From the NCBI RefSeq assembly GCF_025685655.1, contig NZ_JAGSYG010000002.1:682001-746000 (forward strand): a stretch of DNA of 64,000 nucleotides. The letters run 5' to 3'. The notes under the pieces were generated by a model that ran no database searches, had not been told where the DNA came from, and was given only the letters and a program-made list of their open reading frames with translations. The translations under genes and the position numbers were made by a program. Numbering within the stretch: position 1 is the stretch's first letter; every line of letters begins with the position of its first letter. Positions 25,140-32,094 of this stretch are shown in pieces. This DNA comes from Acidicapsa ligni (GTDB lineage: Bacteria; Acidobacteriota; Terriglobia; Terriglobales; Acidobacteriaceae).

Positions 25140-25287
25140 GGGGTTGTGACTCCTCTTAAAGCACTGCTGTTGCACATCGAGATTACCGCTTAGGTTATCG
25201 CGAACAGCTATGCAATGTCACGAAGAAGGGCGAATTGGTTTTGGGTTCGTCGGGGATGATTGTTGTTCTGTGAAGATGCGGCGAAGA

Positions 25288-25372
25288 AGATTCGCTTTGG
25301 GAATGACAGCTGGAACGGCAAGGGCAAGAGCTGAGGCAAAAGCAAAAGCAGATTCGCTTCGGGAATGACAGC
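25288..25372 (+). repeat. dispersed repeat, copies 3 and 4 in tandem
   Basis: AGATTCGCTTTGGGAATGAC then AGC (25288-25310), a GGCAAGGGCAAGAG spacer, then GCAGATTCGCTTCGGGAATG then ACAGC (25348-25372). Both share the core of copies at 9203 and 14560. A partial fifth copy lies at 25446-25464. Confidence 0.7.
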
Positions 25373-25375
25373 CAG

Positions 25376-25438
25376 AACGGCAACGGCAACGGCAAATGCA
25401 ACGGCAAATGCAAGGGCAACGGCAACGGCTAAGGGAAC
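25376..25438 (+). repeat. GGCAAC hexamer run
   Basis: About ten GGCAAC/GGCAAA/GGCAAG-type hexamers in a row between dispersed repeat copies 4 and 5. Similar but shorter GCAAAAG/GCAAGG runs border every other copy, so the hexamers appear to be part of the repeat unit. Confidence 0.7.
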
Positions 25439-25445
25439 TGCAACT

Positions 25446-25464
25446 GCAGATTCGCTTTGGGATT
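25446..25464 (+). repeat. dispersed repeat, partial copy 5
   Basis: GCAGATTCGCTTTGGGATT matches the left part of the dispersed core and then diverges. It reaches the 3' end of the adjacent XRE regulator gene, whose stop is at 25463. Confidence 0.55.
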
Positions 25465-25669
25465 ATTCGGCATTCTCTGCTTCGTCGAAGAAGATGGCCT
25501 CGATGGTTGTGTCAAAGAGCCGCGCGAGGCGAAAGGCCAGTGGGAGGCTGGGGTCGAACTTGCCTGTTTCAATCGCGTTGACGCTTTGACGCGAAACTTC
25601 GAGTCTCTGGGCGAGGTCGGCCTGGCTCCACTGCCGCTCGGCGCGTAGAACACGAAGCCGGTTCTTCAT
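25463..25669 (-). CDS. small XRE-family transcriptional regulator
   Basis: 68-residue single-domain helix-turn-helix protein of the Cro/CI type: QADLAQRLEVSRQSVNAIETG is the HTH, preceded by MKNRLRVLRAERQWS and followed by PSLPLAFRLARLFDTTIEAIF. This matches the YozG-like group of short regulators usually paired with a small membrane protein. The ATG at 25669 overlaps the stop of that membrane-protein gene (ATGA), with GGAG six bases before it. The pair probably regulates itself from the promoter at 26110-26138. Confidence 0.9.
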   Translation of the reverse strand: MKNRLRVLRAERQWSQADLAQRLEVSRQSVNAIETGKFDPSLPLAFRLARLFDTTIEAIFFDEAENAE

Positions 25670-26079
25670 CGGTTTCTCCATAGCTGGATGCGCAGCGCGA
25701 TGGCAGCGGTGATGAGGAAAATCTCCAAATTAAAGGCTGTGAGAGCCGGTACATGGGGAGAGTTGTAGCCTACGATAATGTAGCCGAGAAAGGTGTCAAT
25801 CACCATGACCAGCCCGAACCCCCAGAGGATCGACTGAACGACGAGATGGCGCAGATACTCGTCCTTTTCTGCGGCTAGATAACGCGCGATAACGATCATG
25901 ACGCCGATGATGGGGGTAATGGCGAGCAACGCGATTACACAATAAGTCAGAGTGGAAAAGTGGCTCCGCTCGATTTTTGGGAGAATGCCACCTAGTCCGC
26001 CGCAGATCGCCATCATTGCCCCGATAAGCTGCATGGTGCGGCGCTGGAGAGCTGTGAGATTTCGATTACAGATTCGCAT
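25666..26079 (-). CDS. small four-helix membrane protein
   Basis: 137-residue membrane protein with four hydrophobic segments (about 14-34, 45-68, 80-105, 115-133), and a charged loop AAEKDEYLRHLV between the second and third. It is always first in such pairs with a short XRE regulator, as here. The biological role of these pairs is unknown. The ATG at 26079 is eight bases after AAGGA. Translation is coupled to the regulator by a 4-bp overlap. Confidence 0.7.
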   Translation of the reverse strand: MRICNRNLTALQRRTMQLIGAMMAICGGLGGILPKIERSHFSTLTYCVIALLAITPIIGVMIVIARYLAAEKDEYLRHLVVQSILWGFGLVMVIDTFLGYIIVGYNSPHVPALTAFNLEIFLITAAIALRIQLWRNR

Positions 26080-26109
26080 GATTGGTTTCCTTTGCAATGT
26101 GACAAGTAA

Positions 26110-26138
26110 ACATTACATTGGCCGTGTAGATATGTCAA
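26110..26138 (-). promoter_or_regulatory. promoter of the membrane protein / XRE pair
   Basis: On the reverse strand TTGACA (26133-26138) and TAATGT (26110-26115) are 17 bp apart, about 30 bp before the membrane protein ATG. The upstream base of the -35 box is the first base of the transposon target duplication, so the element sits directly against this promoter. Confidence 0.7.
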
Positions 26139-26145
26139 GCGTCCT
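26138..26145. repeat. 8-bp target site duplication, left copy
   Basis: AGCGTCCT immediately outside the left inverted repeat; the same eight bases recur at 30687-30694 outside the right inverted repeat. IS1595-family elements are known to duplicate 8 bp. Confidence 0.88.
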
Positions 26146-26168
26146 TATCATTATCCCTTTGACTGAGG
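26146..26168 (+). repeat. left terminal inverted repeat
   Basis: TATCATTATCCCTTTGACTG followed by AGG. It matches the reverse complement of 30664-30686 at all but positions 1 and 4. Confidence 0.9.
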
Positions 26169-26213
26169 GGAATAAACGTGCAAGAATAAGCCATCACTAA
26201 GAAGGATGGCTAT

Positions 26214-26507
26214 ATGACTGAACCAAAATCTATTGAGTGGCTGCTGTTGAATTTCATCCGAGAAGCGATATTAGCTGCGCAAGAACGTGATGTTTACAAG
26301 AACGCTGCTCAGAATACCGAAGTGACTAGAGTGTTGGTTCGGACCGCGTTTTCCAGTCCTGAATACGATTTGAAGCGTCGGCAATGTAACGCTCTATTTC
26401 AAGAGGTATGGGAAGCGGTTCAGAAGTCCGATCTGAGTAAAGTTGCTGAAGAACTGGGAGGACTTTCAGGAATATTAGGTCTGACTGTATCTGGTTCACA
26501 GGAGTAG
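26214..26507 (+). CDS. unknown protein encoded upstream of the transposase
   Basis: 97-residue soluble, mostly helical protein of no family known to me. It begins MTEPKSIEWLLLNFIREAIL and ends in a Gly/Ser-rich tail. A good AAGAAGGA lies seven bases before ATG 26214, and its stop is only 3 bp before the transposase start, so the two are co-transcribed and probably coupled. It could be a regulatory or accessory transposition protein, but nothing in the sequence shows this. It is the first gene after the left end of the element. Confidence 0.7.
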   Translation: MTEPKSIEWLLLNFIREAILAAQERDVYKNAAQNTEVTRVLVRTAFSSPEYDLKRRQCNALFQEVWEAVQKSDLSKVAEELGGLSGILGLTVSGSQE

Positions 26508-26510
26508 CCA

Positions 26511-27428
26511 ATGAATCTCTTCTCTCTAGCCAAAGAGTTTCCGACCGAATCCGATGCTCTTGAGTATTGGATCAAGACCCGATGGCCGGATGGTATACGT
26601 TGTGTTGAATGTAACCACAGTAAGGTTTACCGGATTGAGACAACGGGCAAGACTGGCAAATCTTGCCTAGTGTTGGAGTGTGCAAAGTGCGGGTTGCATT
26701 TTAGCCCGACCGCTGGGACGTTGTTCCACGATAGCCACCTCCCCTTACAGAAGTGGTTTGCGTGTATCGCTTTGATGTGTGAAGCGAAAAAAGGAGTGTC
26801 GGCCAATCAGATCAGCCGTCATATCGGAGTTACCTATAAGACCGCGTGGTATCTTTGTCACCGTATCCGCAAGGCAATGTCCGAAGAACCTTCGGTAATG
26901 GGTGGTCAGGGTCAAATCGTAGAGATTGACGAGTCCTTCATTGGTGGCAATATCCGTGGTGGTGGCGTAGACGGCAAGAAATCCAAGATCAAAGTCTTTG
27001 GAGTTGCCGAACGTGGCGGAAGAGTCCATCTACGGAAAATCAAGAATCTAAAGAAAGAAACTCTACAGCCTTTAGTTGACGCTATGGTAAGTCCGAACGC
27101 TTCTAAAGTCATTACAGACGGTGCGTATGTATACCGATCTCTAATACCCAAGGAAAAGCACATCGCCGGGAATCACTTTCAAGAAATCCGCAAAGGTGAG
27201 GCGATCACCAACAAAACCATAGAAGGTGCTTTTTCACTCTTCAAACGTGGTGTAGTCGGCAACTACCACAAAATAGGTGAAGAACACATGGATGCATACC
27301 TGGGTGAGTTCTGCTGGCGGTATAACCGTCGCAAGCATCAGCCCGAGATGTTCAATGAGGCTTTGAAGCGGCTGAATCAAGCGCCATTACCGTATAGCAA
27401 ATTGAAGGGTGGGGATAATCCGTTCTGA
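26511..27428 (+). CDS. IS1595-family transposase (ISXO2-like)
   Basis: 305-residue DDE-type transposase. An N-terminal zinc ribbon (CVECNHSKVY, then CAKCGLHFSPTAGTLF) is followed by a helix-turn-helix (GVSANQISRHIGVTYKTAWYL) and the catalytic domain: Asp in VEIDESFIGG, Asp in KVITDGAYVYRS and the C-terminal block EGAFSLFKRGVVGNYHK with EEHMDAYLGEFCWRYNRR. These are diagnostic for IS1595/ISXO2. The length is normal and no stops or frameshifts are seen. AGGAG lies six bases before ATG 26511. It should recognise the 23-bp terminal repeats at 26146 and 30686. Confidence 0.95.
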   Translation: MNLFSLAKEFPTESDALEYWIKTRWPDGIRCVECNHSKVYRIETTGKTGKSCLVLECAKCGLHFSPTAGTLFHDSHLPLQKWFACIALMCEAKKGVSANQISRHIGVTYKTAWYLCHRIRKAMSEEPSVMGGQGQIVEIDESFIGGNIRGGGVDGKKSKIKVFGVAERGGRVHLRKIKNLKKETLQPLVDAMVSPNASKVITDGAYVYRSLIPKEKHIAGNHFQEIRKGEAITNKTIEGAFSLFKRGVVGNYHKIGEEHMDAYLGEFCWRYNRRKHQPEMFNEALKRLNQAPLPYSKLKGGDNPF

Positions 27429-27737
27429 CTGCTAAACTACTAACGAACCGGAACTCCGGACGGAGGTGCCATTATGTCCAAGCTGATAACTTGGCTCCTG
27501 AAGATGTTCCCGGCGTCAGTAGTGCGAACAGCAACGGGAATATACCTCGCCTGACAACAAGGTAAACCGCTGTTCCGCCGTAGCGCAGCTTAACCGGTAG
27601 CTATGCATCCCTACATAGGTGGCTACTCACCACCATGATGGAAGCAGATTGGTCTAAAAGCCAGTTGGACCTACTGACACAGTTGTCGTGGATAGACAAG
27701 CCGCGTTAAAGGCTAGTGAGATTGGCACTAGCCCCAA
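27429..27737. other. gene-poor stretch inside the element, possible structured RNA
   Basis: 309 bp between the transposase and the XRE module with no gene over 26 codons that I trust. Several short hairpins can be drawn: CCGG-AACT-CCGG near 27449-27460, GGTGG/CCACC around CTACTCA near 27620, and GGCTAGTG/CACTAGCC (27710-27732) with a seven-base loop. A tRNA D-arm-like GTAGCGCAGCTTAACCGGTAGC is present, but no full tRNA folds. A small RNA or a regulatory leader is a guess. Confidence 0.35.
27474..27554 (+). CDS. possible 26-residue hydrophobic peptide
   Basis: Short frame starting MSKLITWLLKMFPASVV, then ending GIYLA, after an excellent GGAGG with ideal spacing before ATG 27474. The peptide is amphipathic and mildly basic, of the size of small membrane peptides or type I toxins. 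It lies 45 bp after the transposase stop. Coding is not certain; the ribosome site is the main argument. Confidence 0.35.
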   Translation: MSKLITWLLKMFPASVVRTATGIYLA

Positions 27738-27896
27738 CTACTTGTCAGTTTTAGGTACTGGTTTCTTTCTACTATTGGGCAGTGTCCCCACCACATCCTT
27801 GAGCGGTATCGGCCTGCTATTGATTAGCTTACTCAGTACCGCGTCAAATTTCTCTTTACTGACTTCTATGTCTTTTATTTCTTTTACGTCTTCCAT
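27738..27896 (-). CDS. small charged protein paired with the XRE regulator (52 aa)
   Basis: 52-residue protein starting MEDVKEIKDIEVSKEKFD, with a central AVLSKLINSRPIPLKDV and a basic C-terminus. It starts six bases after the XRE regulator stop on the same strand, so the two are one unit, and AGAGGA in the end of the regulator gene serves as ribosome site. Proteins of this shape (charged helix, then a Pro-Leu-Lys-Asp turn) are frequent companions of regulators and toxins on mobile elements. Its function is not known. Confidence 0.6.
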   Translation of the reverse strand: MEDVKEIKDIEVSKEKFDAVLSKLINSRPIPLKDVVGTLPNSRKKPVPKTDK

Positions 27897-27902
27897 CAAG
27901 AA

Positions 27903-28124
27903 TTAATCCTCTATGCCTTTAAGCAAATCAGACGGTTTGATCTCAAGCGCCCCAGCTATTGCCTCTAAACTCATTAAACCTAGTTCCCGTTCCCCTCGCT
28001 CTATTGTACTAATGTGATTCTTTCCAATCCCTGAATGTTCGGCAAGGTCGATTTGTCTCCAGCCTTTCTTTCTTCTCAAATCTTTGATTCTTTTACCCAG
28101 CCGGACACAAATACTGATTGCCAT
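27903..28124 (-). CDS. XRE-family helix-turn-helix regulator of the element
   Basis: 73-residue Cro/CI-type DNA-binding protein: RLGKRIKDLRRKKGWRQIDL, the HTH HSGIGKNHISTIERGERELG, and ALEIKPSDLLKG at the end. It is a single domain without a sensor region. It is read from a 58-bp gap shared with the divergent membrane protein gene at 28183, so it may control both directions. The downstream 52-aa gene follows after six bases. Likely keeps passenger genes or transposition in check, inferred from position only. Confidence 0.88.
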   Translation of the reverse strand: MAISICVRLGKRIKDLRRKKGWRQIDLAEHSGIGKNHISTIERGERELGLMSLEAIAGALEIKPSDLLKGIED

Positions 28125-28182
28125 CCGTACAGTCTCGTTATATTCTCATTTCAATAATCCCTGCATACATGGATTGAGACGA

Positions 28183-28467
28183 ATGAAACCACTGCTGTAC
28201 ATTTCGGGCGCTGCTTTATGCTTGATACTCTTTGGATCGGGAATGCTGGTTGGCCGTGAATTTCCATCTCACCGCTACGAAAAGATTTCGACTGGACCCT
28301 ACTTGCTGGATGTCTCTACCGGGAGAGTATGCTTTGTTTTCTTGGATTGGAGTGTTGATCCGACTTCGGAAACCCTTAAAGCCTACTCCACCCCACACAC
28401 TGACAACCTGATTGACAACTATTTGAGCAAAAAAGCGGCGGCTTCTGTACCAGACTGCCCAAAGTGA
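28183..28467 (+). CDS. small single-pass membrane protein, passenger gene
   Basis: 94-residue protein with one N-terminal membrane anchor (LLYISGAALCLILFGSGML) and a 65-residue outside domain that includes YLLDVSTGRVCFVFLDW and ends in PDCPK. Two cysteines could pair outside the membrane. ATG 28183 is the first good start; its ribosome site is weak. The gene is divergent from the XRE regulator and six bases upstream of a zinc-ribbon gene. No family function is recognised. Confidence 0.6.
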   Translation: MKPLLYISGAALCLILFGSGMLVGREFPSHRYEKISTGPYLLDVSTGRVCFVFLDWSVDPTSETLKAYSTPHTDNLIDNYLSKKAAASVPDCPK

Positions 28468-28473
28468 GGAAAT

Positions 28474-28662
28474 ATGAACTATTTTGGCGTGAAGTGTGCA
28501 AAATGTGGAAATCCACTTCTTCTAGAGAAGATAACCCCTGTTCCTGCGGGGAAAATCGATTTCTACACCATGCCTATAGACAAGAGAAAATGTTCGATCT
28601 GCTTTCACGAGCAGCAATACTTTATAGAACATCGAATTATCCTCTCGGTTTCGGTAACTTAA
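28474..28662 (+). CDS. small zinc-ribbon protein, passenger gene
   Basis: 62-residue protein with two CxxC pairs: VKCAKCGNP near residues 8-11 and RKCSICFHE near 40-43, consistent with one structural zinc. AGGA lies four bases before ATG 28474, and the gene follows the membrane protein gene by six bases. Its 3' end overlaps the 3' end of the convergent gene 28637-28804 by 26 bp. Function unknown; small zinc ribbons often bind RNA, DNA or a partner protein. Confidence 0.6.
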   Translation: MNYFGVKCAKCGNPLLLEKITPVPAGKIDFYTMPIDKRKCSICFHEQQYFIEHRIILSVSVT

Positions 28663-28804
28663 TCACTACCTGCAAAACAGACATCCATGCAATCTGTCCG
28701 GTTGTGTCAGATTCCGTGGCATACAGGTTCTCATTATCTGGATGCCAATGGGCCTCTACGCCGAAACGATTTGAGATAGGGATTTCTTCTAGCTTGGTAT
28801 ACAT
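28637..28804 (-). CDS. unknown 55-aa protein, last gene of the passenger operon
   Basis: 55-residue protein beginning MYTKLEEIPISNRFG and containing EAHWHPDNENLYATE and a hydrophobic WMSVLQVVIKL near the end. Its ATG directly abuts the stop of the preceding gene (TAGATG), a strong sign of translational coupling. It would be the sixth gene of the operon starting at 30567. No family is recognised. It converges on, and overlaps by 26 bp, the zinc-ribbon gene. Confidence 0.6.
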   Translation of the reverse strand: MYTKLEEIPISNRFGVEAHWHPDNENLYATESDTTGQIAWMSVLQVVIKLPKPRG

Positions 28805-29107
28805 CTAAACTCCATTAACCGGAATATCTAAACTCTTGAGGGCGGTGTTCGCGTTTGTGATCTCTGTTCGGAGAATTCGGGAGCGGCGCTGTTTCATGTC
28901 TAAAGCAGAAACGCTCTCTTTTACGGCATCTATACTGAATCCCCACTCTGGATCAGACTCCAGTTTCTGAGCAAGGTCGGCAAGACCTTGGGCGGTAGCC
29001 CTTATCTCACTGATTAGGTATTCGTGCTCTGCAAGATTTCTAGCTCGCTCCCTGAGCGCCCTTGCGAGAAAACTATCTTTATCATTTTCGATCTTGTTAT
29101 ATTCCAT
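28805..29107 (-). CDS. unknown helical protein, paralogue of the operon's first gene
   Basis: 100-residue, highly charged helical protein. It aligns along nearly its whole length with the protein of 30283-30567: RNLAEHEYLISEIRATAQGL against ENIREHTLLNDEIKVIAEGI, then DPEWGFSIDAV against NPEYSFDVQAA, then a matching C-terminal helix. The two genes therefore come from a duplication and may form a hetero-oligomer. Its start ATG 29107 lies two bases after the preceding stop, with GAGGT inside it. No known domain; a coiled-coil binding role is possible. Confidence 0.65.
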   Translation of the reverse strand: MEYNKIENDKDSFLARALRERARNLAEHEYLISEIRATAQGLADLAQKLESDPEWGFSIDAVKESVSALDMKQRRSRILRTEITNANTALKSLDIPVNGV

Positions 29108-29109
29108 AC

Positions 29110-29547
29110 TTACCTCAATAGCTGCCGTATCACCCAAACTGCGACTTCTTTAGGTGATACGGTCGCCCAAACACTTAGTGCTGGTTGGACTCGCCGAAAA
29201 ACCACATCTCGGTTCCACACGGCTATTTCGATAAACGAATCTCTTGTCATCGAGTGCCCCGTAAACAGGACTCTAGAAGCCTCTGGGTGATATTCAATTT
29301 TGATGTAATTACCATCCAGGAGTTTTAAAGTCAGCCCTTGAGGTTCTTCTTCGAGAAAGACTTCGGTTGAACCCGAGCCGACATTGAAGGCGGTTACAGA
29401 CTCCTTTAGTATTTCCCTTAGGTCGGACCAAAGCTTAGGACTCCGAGCCTTAATGAACTTACGTTCCTCTAGAAACGCAAGTTTCCCTAATTGATCATCT
29501 TGCTGCCTTCCCCTGTAGGAAAGGACCAAATCTTCTATGGATTGCAT
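29110..29547 (-). CDS. unknown 145-aa protein of the passenger operon
   Basis: Largest product of the operon, 145 residues. It opens with a charged helical region (SIEDLVLSYRGRQQDDQLG), then has an alternating beta-type section (STEVFLEEEPQGLTLKLLDG, NYIKIEYHPEASRVLFTGH) and a Trp-containing end. The helix-plus-sheet pattern suggests a globular domain, but no enzyme motif is seen. It lies 9 bp after gene 29557-29877 and 2 bp before the next start. Function unknown. Confidence 0.65.
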   Translation of the reverse strand: MQSIEDLVLSYRGRQQDDQLGKLAFLEERKFIKARSPKLWSDLREILKESVTAFNVGSGSTEVFLEEEPQGLTLKLLDGNYIKIEYHPEASRVLFTGHSMTRDSFIEIAVWNRDVVFRRVQPALSVWATVSPKEVAVWVIRQLLR

Positions 29548-29556
29548 AATACCCTT

Positions 29557-29877
29557 CTACTGCAAGAACTTATCTAAAGTAGAGCATTCCTTCAACAAGC
29601 CTCGAAGTTCACTTGCCAGAGAACGGATTCTCTCGGCGCTGAGATCGGGGATGCTGGACTTTGCAATTGCTCGAAAAGCATCAATCCCGTAATTATCACC
29701 CTCAAATACAACTTTCTCGGGCGCGCTGAGAAGATTGTTTCCAACCCAAACGAGAGTATTCCCTATTCGGGTTGATTCCTTACTTAGTTCGGCGATTTCG
29801 GTTTTAACTTGCTTTAGTCTGTCGTGGGCTTCTGTAATCTCCCGGTTACGGGCTTCTCTATTTAGCTGATATTCCAT
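29557..29877 (-). CDS. unknown coiled-coil protein of the passenger operon (106 aa)
   Basis: 106-residue protein with an N-terminal coiled coil (NREITEAHDRLKQVKTEIAE, then LSKESTRIGNTLVWVGNNLL) and a C-terminal helical region ERIRSLASELRGLLKEC. Its start is preceded by TTTAAAAAAGGATAGATATG, almost the same leader as gene 29896-30228, giving AAGGA at ideal spacing. Third in the operon. No domain is recognised. Confidence 0.65.
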   Translation of the reverse strand: MEYQLNREARNREITEAHDRLKQVKTEIAELSKESTRIGNTLVWVGNNLLSAPEKVVFEGDNYGIDAFRAIAKSSIPDLSAERIRSLASELRGLLKECSTLDKFLQ

Positions 29878-29895
29878 ATCTATCCTTTTTTAAAT

Positions 29896-30228
29896 CTATT
29901 CGTAGACGCCAAGTATTTCTTTTTCATCTTCCAACGCTTTTTTGCGGAACATTGCTTCCCTCAGAGTATCAGCCAACTTAAACGCCTCTAAGGGTTTCGC
30001 TAGAGTTGGAAGTTTTTGCGTGTCAAAGGCGATTGGATTAGCATTGTAGTGGTTTTGTTCTTGCCTCCACAATCGAGTAGTAGGGTAGTCTTTAGCAAAC
30101 ATCCCAAACTCTGAATACAAAGCACCGATTTCTTTTAAGTCTTTTTGTGTCTTATATATGAGTTTATTGATTTCGTAGAGATCGGCCAGAACTTCACCGA
30201 TACGAGTTTTTGTAGGGTTTGTATCCAT
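29896..30228 (-). CDS. unknown helical protein of the passenger operon (110 aa)
   Basis: 110-residue helical protein: GEVLADLYEINKLIYKTQKD, a middle section rich in Tyr, Trp and Asn (DYPTTRLWRQEQNHYNAN), and a final helix LREAMFRKKALEDEKEIL. Second gene of the operon, with the leader ATTTAAAAAGGATAGATATG shared with the next gene. No known family. Its size and helical make-up resemble its neighbours, so the operon may encode one multi-part assembly. Confidence 0.65.
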   Translation of the reverse strand: MDTNPTKTRIGEVLADLYEINKLIYKTQKDLKEIGALYSEFGMFAKDYPTTRLWRQEQNHYNANPIAFDTQKLPTLAKPLEAFKLADTLREAMFRKKALEDEKEILGVYE

Positions 30229-30282
30229 ATCTATCCTTTTTAAATTTGCCTTTAAATTCCATTAACAGGAATTCTGTTTGGT

Positions 30283-30567
30283 CTAGGAATCTAGGAAAAC
30301 AGTCCCTTTTAACTTTTTTGTGTCTTCGGCTATTTGAGTGCTTAGTGCGCCGCAGCGCGACTGTTTTTCCGGTAAGGACAATAGGCCGGTATTGGCCGCT
30401 TGTACGTCAAAGCTGTATTCCGGGTTCACTAGCAGTTGTTTACCTAAACTCTGAATGCCTTCCGCTATAACCTTAATTTCATCATTCAATAATGTATGTT
30501 CTCGGATGTTTTCTTTGCGACGAAGCGCGATCCGATATTCGCCTAGTTGTTTTTCTTCTTCCGTCAT
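30283..30567 (-). CDS. unknown helical protein, first gene of the passenger operon
   Basis: 94-residue charged helical protein, paralogous to the product of 28805-29107 (shared EH-x-L-x3-EI spacing, NPEYSF/DPEWGF and a matching last helix). It has the strongest promoter in the window 26 bp upstream and AAGAAGG in front of its ATG. No domain is known. Being first in the operon and the only duplicated gene, it may be the most abundant component. Confidence 0.65.
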   Translation of the reverse strand: MTEEEKQLGEYRIALRRKENIREHTLLNDEIKVIAEGIQSLGKQLLVNPEYSFDVQAANTGLLSLPEKQSRCGALSTQIAEDTKKLKGTVFLDS

Positions 30568-30592
30568 ACAACCTTCTTTTTAAGTATGTCTC

Positions 30593-30621
30593 ATTATATC
30601 AAAATAAAAAGAAAAAGTCAA
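30593..30621 (-). promoter_or_regulatory. near-consensus promoter of the passenger operon
   Basis: On the reverse strand TTGACT (30616-30621) and TATAAT (30593-30598) are exactly 17 bp apart within a long A/T-rich stretch. A second TTGACA lies 23 bp further up, without its own -10. It is 43-71 bp inside the right inverted repeat, so the element brings its own promoter. Confidence 0.85.
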
Positions 30622-30663
30622 GCATAAAATGAAATATTTGTCAAGAAAATAAGAGAATTTTAT

Positions 30664-30686
30664 CCTCAGTCAAAGGGATAATTATT
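30664..30686 (-). repeat. right terminal inverted repeat
   Basis: Read inward on the reverse strand: AATAATTATCCCTTTGACTG then AGG, matching the left end 26146-26168 at 21 of 23 positions. Confidence 0.9.
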
Positions 30687-30694
30687 AGCGTCCT
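30687..30694. repeat. 8-bp target site duplication, right copy
   Basis: AGCGTCCT, identical to 26138-26145, directly outside the right inverted repeat. Confidence 0.88.
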
Positions 30695-30751
30695 TGTCTT
30701 AAATGAGACTGAGCCAGCGTTGCTATCCCAGGCTCCTGGATCGCTGTAAGA

Positions 30752-30781
30752 TTTGAAGCGGTCCAATTTGAAACGGTCTAA
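30752..30781 (+). repeat. two tandem 15-bp repeats before a start codon
   Basis: TTTGAAGCGGTCCAA (30752-30766) is followed at once by TTTGAAACGGTCTAA (30767-30781), differing at two positions. The second copy ends in the first base of the ATG of the next gene. It may be an operator or a duplication. Confidence 0.5.
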
Positions 30782-32094
30782 TGGGATGGAAAATGCTGGA
30801 TTGGATGAGACGAGCACGTAAAACCCGTTGGCTTTCCGTGCAATGGCTCTTCGCACAATGGGTTTCCGCGAGAAGCTGTTTTAGGCCAAGGCTCATGGCT
30901 GTTGCGCTGGCCCTGGTCCTGGTCCTGGTTCTGGTCCTGCCGGGGACGGTGGCGCAGGCCTTTGCCATCAAACATGTCACCGTGGAGCAGTTGGAGAAGG
31001 AACTGGATTCGATTCGAGGCAAGTCGGATTCGAAGATTGCCCATCAGCTTGCGGGCATGGAATTGACGGAGCGGATGAATGTGAGCACACTTTCGCGATT
31101 GGAGAGTGGTTTGCGTGGCCGTCAGAGCCGCCAGGCATTGCTGCTGCTGGCGGATGATGCGGTCTTTCTGGATTCTCCCGCTGCAGAAGTTTCTACTGAT
31201 CCCAAGCCGGATGCAGCCGCGCGGCAGAAAATGGCGGACCTTATGGTGGCTTATGTAAAGAAAACCATATCGCGATTCCCCAATTTCTTTGCAACGCGCA
31301 ACACGACCTGGTTTGCGGATCAGCCGGATACGAGTTTTTCCGGATATGAGTCGATGCATGTTATTGGGAATGCCAGTGAGACCGTTCTTTACCGCGATGG
31401 ACACGAGGTGGTGGAGAACGCAAATGTGACAAATAAGAAAGCCAGCACCGGCACGCGGGGAGTGGTGACGACGGGGGAGTATGGCCCCATTCTTATCACC
31501 GCAATCATCGATGTAGCTCATGGCACGATGGCCTGGGATCGTTGGGAAAAAATCGAGAGCCCAAATCTAAATTCAAACCCCGGTGGAAGCACAAGTCAGA
31601 CACTGGCAGTCTTTCGCTTTAGCGTGCCCAGGGACAAATCCCATTACGGGGTGACGGTTTGTTGTTCAGAGGAAGGTCTTGGGAACAAACGCTTCAAACG
31701 ATTTCCCGCCTATCACGGAGAGATTGCTCTCGATCCGGAGACTGGCGCGATCTTTCGCCTGACGATGCAGGCCGATCTGGAGCCGTCGGATCTTGTCGTC
31801 GAGGCCGATCTGATAGTTGAGTTTGAGCCTGTTGAGATAGGCGGTATTGCCTACGTTTGCCCGGTAAGGAGCGTCTCAATCTCAGAGGAGCCGATGCGGG
31901 ATGATAGCTCCAGGCGTCCCAGCTATCGTAACGACGGGGGCTATCACAGCGATGCAGGAAAGCATGGCAACGCGGGAACTGAGGGTGGTTTGCCCAATGG
32001 GCGCGGGCGCTATCAGACATTTATGAGCGATGTTGTCTTTGAACGGTATCATCTGCTTCGCTCAGAGTCTCGAATGGTGATTGGCAACAATTGA
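30781..32094 (+). CDS. secreted protein of unknown function (437 aa)
   Basis: Exported protein. A basic N-terminus of about 39 residues precedes a hydrophobic core (LMAVALALVLVLVLVLPG) and a cleavage site near VAQAFA. The mature part begins with a helical EQLEKELDSIRGKSDSKIAH segment and continues as a mixed domain with DRWEKIESPNLNS and a VCPVRSVSIS strand. There is a Gly/His-rich low-complexity stretch near residue 390. I recognise no enzyme motif; similar secreted proteins occur in acidobacteria. The start is uncertain: ATGs at 30781, 30793, 30805 and 30898 are all in frame, and none has a strong ribosome site. It ends 19 bp before the kinase gene. Confidence 0.6.
   Translation: MGWKMLDWMRRARKTRWLSVQWLFAQWVSARSCFRPRLMAVALALVLVLVLVLPGTVAQAFAIKHVTVEQLEKELDSIRGKSDSKIAHQLAGMELTERMNVSTLSRLESGLRGRQSRQALLLLADDAVFLDSPAAEVSTDPKPDAAARQKMADLMVAYVKKTISRFPNFFATRNTTWFADQPDTSFSGYESMHVIGNASETVLYRDGHEVVENANVTNKKASTGTRGVVTTGEYGPILITAIIDVAHGTMAWDRWEKIESPNLNSNPGGSTSQTLAVFRFSVPRDKSHYGVTVCCSEEGLGNKRFKRFPAYHGEIALDPETGAIFRLTMQADLEPSDLVVEADLIVEFEPVEIGGIAYVCPVRSVSISEEPMRDDSSRRPSYRNDGGYHSDAGKHGNAGTEGGLPNGRGRYQTFMSDVVFERYHLLRSESRMVIGNN

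Follow-up and report, generated by a model that had tools for sequence, protein, structure and literature searches.

A 64,000-nucleotide stretch of an Acidicapsa ligni contig (NZ_JAGSYG010000002.1, positions 682,001 to 746,000; hereafter the window, whose own numbering is used throughout) carries six small minus-strand open reading frames (ORFs), g1 to g6, between the ends of an insertion sequence (IS) of the IS1595 family. The ORFs have 94, 110, 106, 145, 100, and 55 codons and occupy 1,848 of 1,931 bp, separated from g1 to g6 by gaps of 54, 18, 9, 2, and 0 bp; at the g5/g6 join, the stop codon abuts the start codon (TAG-ATG). Minus-strand ORFs of at least 50 amino acids (aa) cover 0.95 of positions 28637 to 30586, whereas 500 dinucleotide shuffles averaged 0.19 and never exceeded 0.57. 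The ORF coordinates and this control bear out the tight, head-to-tail layout described earlier from the letters alone (the sequence-only reading), and the TTGACT-17-TATAAT motif reported in front of the operon was recovered as well. This motif is the operon's best promoter-like site, separate from the terminal repeat and 65 bp inside the right end of the element, although the region holds three promoter-like sites, no more than the 3.7 expected by chance (standard deviation, 2.0). The leaders of the operon genes are mostly purine-rich, and g2 and g3 have a common 21-nucleotide leader with 95% identity.

The borders of the element were identified from its inverted repeats, target-site duplication, and transposase (Table 1). 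The longest inverted pair found in positions 25150 to 30900 joins 26131-26168 to 30664-30701 (38 nucleotides, 79%), and the sequence AGCGTCCT is perfectly repeated on both sides, three bases outside each core of the terminal repeats. Because this core-flanking duplication is present on both sides, the element is delimited as 26146 to 30686. Its GC content is 0.446, lower than that of the 10-kb flanks (0.556 and 0.560). The transposase matches DDE_Tnp_IS1595 (PF12762; E = 1.1e-26, 94.1 bits against a cutoff of 27), Zn_ribbon_IS1595 (PF12760; E = 4.1e-7, 30.3 bits against a cutoff of 25.4), and NCBIfam NF033547 (178.8 bits against a cutoff of 75). As characterized in a published account, IS1595-family elements possess the DDE_Tnp_IS1595 domain, usually an 8-bp target duplication, and, outside the IS1016 group, an N-terminal zinc finger (PMC8101967). 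The catalytic domain, zinc finger, inverted repeats, and 8-bp duplication are all present here. When the whole 5.68-Mb genome was searched for the end motif with up to one mismatch, it occurred at two places, which are exactly these ends; as a control, the reversed pattern also matched twice.

Table 1. Features of the IS1595-family element and its six-gene operon (positions in the window)
Feature	Position	Strand	Basis
Complete IS1595-family element, 4,541 bp	26146..30686	.	Repeats, duplication, transposase
8-bp target-site duplication AGCGTCCT, left copy	26138..26145	.	Flank comparison
8-bp target-site duplication AGCGTCCT, right copy	30687..30694	.	Flank comparison
Left terminal inverted repeat	26146..26168	+	Core RATTATnnnYTTGACnnA at 26149, one mismatch
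Right terminal inverted repeat	30664..30686	-	Core at 30666-30683, no mismatch
97-aa ORF directly before transposase	26214..26507	+	PADLOC match only, E = 0.019
IS1595-family DDE transposase, 305 aa, N-terminal zinc ribbon	26511..27428	+	Pfam, NCBIfam
53-aa KFD companion protein, unnamed family, convergent with transposase	27738..27899	-	Motif and profile
73-aa XRE/Cro-type helix-turn-helix (HTH) regulator	27903..28124	-	Pfam; 66% identity to Terracidiphilus gabretensis relative
94-aa protein, N-terminal hydrophobic segment (by eye)	28183..28467	+	Relative at locus L136
62-aa ORF, CxxC pairs (zinc-ribbon-like by eye), end overlaps g6 end	28474..28662	+	No family of weight
g6, 55 aa	28637..28804	-	Sequence search; relative is cargo of Edaphobacter lichenicola M8UP30 element
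g5, 100 aa, predicted two-helix hairpin, g1 paralogue	28805..29107	-	Alignment and model
g4, 145 aa, unnamed cargo family	29110..29547	-	Profile searches and model
g3, 106 aa, charged, weakly similar to g1	29557..29877	-	Shuffle-tested alignment
g2, 110 aa, no relative detected	29896..30228	-	Pfam, NCBIfam, PHROG, plasmid, viral-contig, and locus searches
g1, 94 aa, paralogue of g5	30283..30567	-	Sequence comparison
Promoter-like TTGACT-17-TATAAT into g1	30593..30621 (30621-30593)	-	11/12 consensus bases, TG before -10

Related transposase loci were analyzed as well. Relatives of the transposase (E up to 1e-20) are present in 143/250 genomes of the family, its own included, and a scan of genome contigs returned 110 relatives; the analysis retained the best 80. 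Among these 80, the closest (68%; locus L134) is on a contig of 3.1 kb that was binned as Puia sp., which could reflect horizontal transfer or a binning error; the next closest are acidobacterial. The end core was searched for at 70 loci, the window's among them: two or more cores were present at 36, a single one at most of the others (contig ends truncate many of these), and none at L152 and L158. Duplications were examined for 29 of the 36, using the pair around the transposase where extra cores were present; L137, L140, and L144 (second copies of L096, L099, and L098) and L111, L115, L127, and L157 (odd spacing, orientation, or contig edge) were left out. In total, 24/29 elements, the window's included, have a perfect 8-bp duplication, located in 22 of the 24 at the same offset as in the window; at least 7 of 8 bases are duplicated in 26/29, and L134, L136, and L201 lack a clear duplication. 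In a control with swapped flanks, 3/812 pairs were perfect and 50/812 reached at least 7 of 8 bases.

IS elements often adjoin unrelated genes, which makes it conceivable that g1 to g6 are ordinary chromosomal genes beside such an element and not inside it. The repeats and the exact duplication, however, lie 4,541 bp apart and outside the transposase and all six genes. Because of these end positions this explanation is refuted unless the duplication is coincidental, as in the three swapped pairs above, and we consider it exceedingly improbable. The earlier suggestion that the operon resides on a mobile element is upheld: the element is a transposon of the IS1595 family, bounded by inverted repeats and an 8-bp target duplication. 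We put at roughly 0.95 the probability that the operon is carried as cargo by a complete transporter IS of this family.

None of the six products reaches a curated cutoff in Pfam or NCBIfam; the best subthreshold match is that of g5 to TIGR03899 (E = 0.0013, 18.4 bits against a cutoff of 155.65), and no PHROG family of weight was found for the operon proteins. The first and fifth products are indeed paralogues, as had been noticed: g1 and g5 are 36% identical over 76 aa (E = 4e-13), with a z score of 17.9 and no score as high in 1,000 shuffles. The likeness of g3 to g1 is weak, with 5/1,000 shuffles scoring as high in one test and 2/1,000 in another. A model of g5 built from three sequences predicts a two-helix hairpin (mean predicted local distance difference test [pLDDT] score, 79), and a search of Protein Data Bank (PDB) sequences with g5 gave a best E value of 0.47. 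The description of the products as charged and helical thus holds for g5; the model of g4 mixes alpha and beta structure. A common helical-hairpin family comprising g1, g2, g3, g5, and cargo of L098, L099, and L103 was considered and rejected: only the g1-g5 pair is strong, g1-g3 and L099-L103 are weak, and the rest are at or near chance. Matches to a g1/g5 profile in 11/398 genomes of the family and to g5 in 4/297 genomes of the phylum (own genome included in both counts) were likewise discounted, the foreign ones being taken as chance; their best E value is 0.0011, and they lie in longer frames or in frames with a stop. A relative of g6 (E = 7.7e-7; 44% over 45 aa) belongs to an element of Edaphobacter lichenicola M8UP30 whose duplication is perfect. 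Among g6 matches in 11/300 genomes, the only convincing ones were those in the own genome and at this Edaphobacter site, which was part of the profile.

The g4 product belongs to a wider family. A single-sequence search found matches in 7/398 genomes of the family, its own included; three of the six foreign matches lie in frames of 751 to 1,005 aa and were taken as chance. At E = 0.001, a g4 profile matched 21/250 genomes (the own genome and two profile sources included), and an iterated profile picked up 30 ORFs across the scanned loci, a count that includes g4 and duplicates. Family members are present in 6/33 bounded IS1595-type elements, counting the window's; the 33 comprise the 29 elements examined for duplications and the repeat-bounded L058, L063, L095, and L097, and L048, with a repeat pair of another type, was not used. 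A further member and a 98-aa gene are carried by a 2.9-kb element of T. gabretensis (L044:7137-10056) that has an IS1-family transposase, perfect 21-bp repeats at its ends, and an 8-bp duplication read from the flanks. A gene similar by eye to this 98-aa gene follows the g4 relative at L045. The unnamed cargo family of g4 is thus common to two transposase families, IS1595 and IS1, which is new as far as searched. The family is not exclusive to such elements, because a member also occurs in a Mu-like prophage (L014, near Mu-type portal and transposase genes and beside a D12 DNA methyltransferase) and others occur at places with no noticed transposase.

Searches for named relatives of the g4 family gave little. 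PHROGs matched 0/21 members, Pfam produced one match in the same 21 (E = 0.009), NCBIfam was run on g4 alone, and the best E value of the g4 profile in PDB sequences was 0.18. A model of g4 from four sequences runs from a long helix through an antiparallel sheet to a second helix (mean pLDDT, 66; below 50 for residues 100 to 127). The best Foldseek match to the model is CyaY (E = 0.05), and a structural aligner placed residues 31 to 145 on frataxin/CyaY with a Z score of 10.1 and a root mean square deviation of 2.1 over 88 residues, with unrelated rows reaching Z scores of up to 8.1. The predicted helix-sheet-helix arrangement may therefore resemble that of frataxin/CyaY, whereas the sequence does not: at a threshold of E = 0.01, neither g4 nor any of 20 relatives matched the Pfam frataxin family. 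The frataxin likeness is a lead about the predicted fold, not about function.

Small coiled-coil proteins are common in phage and plasmid transfer modules, and the g4 relative in the Mu-like prophage would also fit such an origin of the operon. The searches argue against this origin. A tblastn search of 72,556 plasmid records with g4, g5, g3, and g2 gave a single match (g4, E = 0.7), g4 and g5 had no match in 50,697 phage records, and no relative was found in scans of viral contigs with g4, g3, and g2 or of genome contigs with g4 alone. As no PHROG or NCBIfam family of weight was obtained and the borders are those of a transposon, we consider such a module very unlikely.

The cargo of the related elements, which measure approximately 1.7 to 4.8 kb, is very different from one to the next. 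Relatives of g6, of the 94-aa membrane-type gene (42% over 67 aa, E = 1e-14, to a protein of the IS1595-type element at L136), and of the HTH gene are each located in a different IS1595-type element. The relative of the HTH regulator, 66% identical, adjoins the transposase of a T. gabretensis element that also holds a g4 relative. The six-gene set, and g1, g2, g3, and g5 singly, were not found in the other scanned loci (L014 to L016, L044 to L063, and L094 to L213), and the set was found nowhere else searched, with g1 searched across genomes only together with g5, and g2 and g3 not searched across them. The relatives of g4 and g6 occur without the other five operon genes. Because single cargo genes recur in other elements and the six-gene set was found nowhere else, the cargo is apparently interchangeable. 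The sequence-only reading had singled out the operon as a candidate for an undescribed system; a conserved six-gene system is not supported, since the set is seen only here and its g4 and g6 relatives lie apart, and the lack of a conserved gene order counts in part against that proposal.

Ten cargo proteins of related elements were compared with Pfam. Two genes, one of the HTH and one of the Abi_2 type, exceeded the curated cutoffs, four proteins had no match, and the subthreshold matches were to Gp49-like (beside that HTH gene), UPF0150, Trypsin_2, and AAA_16/ATPase_2. The element at L103:8027-12821 combines the subthreshold AAA_16 gene with the Abi_2 gene, a possible defense cargo. A cargo protein of approximately 280 to 305 aa recurs at L122, L124, and L125; it appears Ntn-hydrolase-like by eye and has no Pfam match for L122 and L124, and protein starts of similar appearance are present at L058 and L063.

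What most of the related elements share, besides transposase and ends, is a small gene. The KFD protein (40 to 65 aa, with the motif VDKxKFDxxLxxxLxxxP) is encoded within 4.5 kb of the transposase at 39/54 Acidobacterial-type loci, or 27/42 when the 12 loci that trained the profile are excluded, compared to 0/57 loci of other IS1595-type transposases and 0/20 loci without this transposase. The division of the 111 transposase loci into 54 and 57 is our own, by source and record title, and ten duplicate loci were removed before counting. ORFs of at least 120 aa are ignored in this count, so L132 and L133 are scored as misses although a longer frame there has the motif. The gene is downstream of and convergent with the transposase gene in 39/39 cases and overlaps its end in 15/39. 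It has no name above chance in Pfam or NCBIfam. No description of it was met in the literature on IS1595 and transporter IS, where subscription papers were mostly outside the coverage and a nameless protein is not searchable by name. As far as searched, this putative convergent companion of the transposase is new. The ends show a second regularity: their TTGAC is followed at 16 to 18 nucleotides by a -10 hexamer with 5 to 6 of 6 bases in 9/29 transposase-side ends (0.77 expected) and 3/29 far ends (0.48 expected), suggesting that this TTGAC can serve as an inward-facing -35 element. Outside the element, to its left, 12-nucleotide tandem-like direct repeats of the AACGGCAACGGC type lie at 25284 to 25460 with spacings of 12 and 62.

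The function of the cargo is less certain than its location. Our leading but tentative proposal, possible but short of probable, is that the operon encodes a hetero-oligomeric complex of helical hairpins (g1, g5, and perhaps g3) with g4, which would act in a defense- or addiction-like manner and favor retention of the element. We suggest this because other elements carry toxin-antitoxin-like and Abi_2 genes. For the defense, competition, or transfer assembly envisaged in the sequence-only reading, this cargo is the part of the evidence that agrees, and the lack of PADLOC matches at E = 0.1 and the lone plasmid match are the part that does not. Alternatively, the genes could be neutral hitchhikers picked up by chance, now decaying and without a current function. 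The low GC content, the orphan proteins, the absence of a conserved gene set, and an apparent change of frame at the C terminus of g1 are all consistent with decay; six open, tightly packed frames with mostly purine-rich leaders and a strong promoter-like site are not, nor is the conservation in sequence of g6 and the g4 family elsewhere. We regard neutral decay as somewhat doubtful. Still less likely, in our judgment, is a role in the element's own transposition, such as target choice, transposase control, or copy control. The operon does lie between the ends, from the right one of which it would be expressed inward, and an XRE-type regulator is present in the same element, but no relative of g1, g2, g3, or g5 was seen in related elements that have ends and a transposase of this kind, and the gene that tracks the transposase is the small KFD gene. 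The remaining weight falls on functions that cannot be named.

Several observations weigh against the operon being functional cargo of a mobile transporter IS. The transposase and ends are single copy, with no sign of movement within the genome, and no empty site was shown: matches to the 437-aa right-hand neighbor were found in 14/15 genomes of the genus (own included), and these are only distant, the best other at 46%. Among the related elements, L136, which holds the relative of the membrane-type gene, and L134 have no clear duplication, agreeing at best in 6 and 5 of 8 bases, respectively, and the T. gabretensis IS1595-type element is bounded by the inverted repeat alone. Several g4 relatives, among the matches listed, have no noticed transposase within 2.5 kb. 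Twenty bases of the g5 end reappear (90%) directly after the g1 stop codon in a different frame; the C-terminal end of g1 thus seems to have been frame-shifted relative to g5 since the duplication, which could mean decay. None of g1 to g6 matches a defense, toxin, or antitoxin model in Pfam, NCBIfam, PHROG, or PADLOC (at E = 0.1, PADLOC-DB of 2023), although a toxin-antitoxin module of an undescribed type may still be present. Finally, the six-gene set was seen only here, and it is the operon layout alone that unites it as one system.

Under the transporter-IS interpretation, the transposase would recognize both ends and move the whole 4.5-kb unit with its cargo, and the six genes would be expressed as one transcript from a sigma-70-type promoter a short distance inside the right end. 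Comparison of the elements suggests a backbone made up of the transposase, the ends, and usually the convergent KFD gene, into which modular cargo (g4-like, g6-like, HTH, and membrane genes) would be fitted in different elements. A broader and more speculative possibility, in our view doubtful, is that Acidobacteriaceae host a cargo-swapping branch of IS1595, with a fixed transposase, promoter-capable ends, and a KFD protein, that shuffles small operons between hosts, the six-gene operon being an undescribed multisubunit immunity or addiction system. If cargo swapping is true, the end motif and the companion gene provide a search handle for mobile, possibly defense-like, cargo genes. Small orphan operons of soil bacteria are hard to interpret; this one may stand alone in a single genome because it is cargo within transposon borders, and its relatives are to be sought in other genomes, inside ends of the same kind.

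Transporter IS are defined as IS with passenger genes between their ends (PMC9330008, PMC11891212) that are not directly involved in transposition (PMC11891212). By position, the operon and the further ORFs within 26146 to 30686 are passengers. Passenger-carrying IS1595 elements already described include MTnSag1 and tISCpe8 (PMC5704250), which the titles cited there present as a mobilizable transposon and a lincomycin resistance element, respectively, and ISNha5, an IS1595-family transporter IS with a regulator gene (PMC11891212). As far as these partial accounts go, the element in the window differs from tISCpe8 and MTnSag1 in its six-gene operon of unknown proteins and in its convergent small companion gene, the latter not met in what they contain, and shares with tISCpe8, MTnSag1, and ISNha5 the IS1595 DDE transposase, inverted repeats, target duplications, and internal passengers. 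With the IS1-family element of T. gabretensis it has in common the g4-family cargo and the 8-bp duplication, in spite of a different type of transposase and different end sequences.

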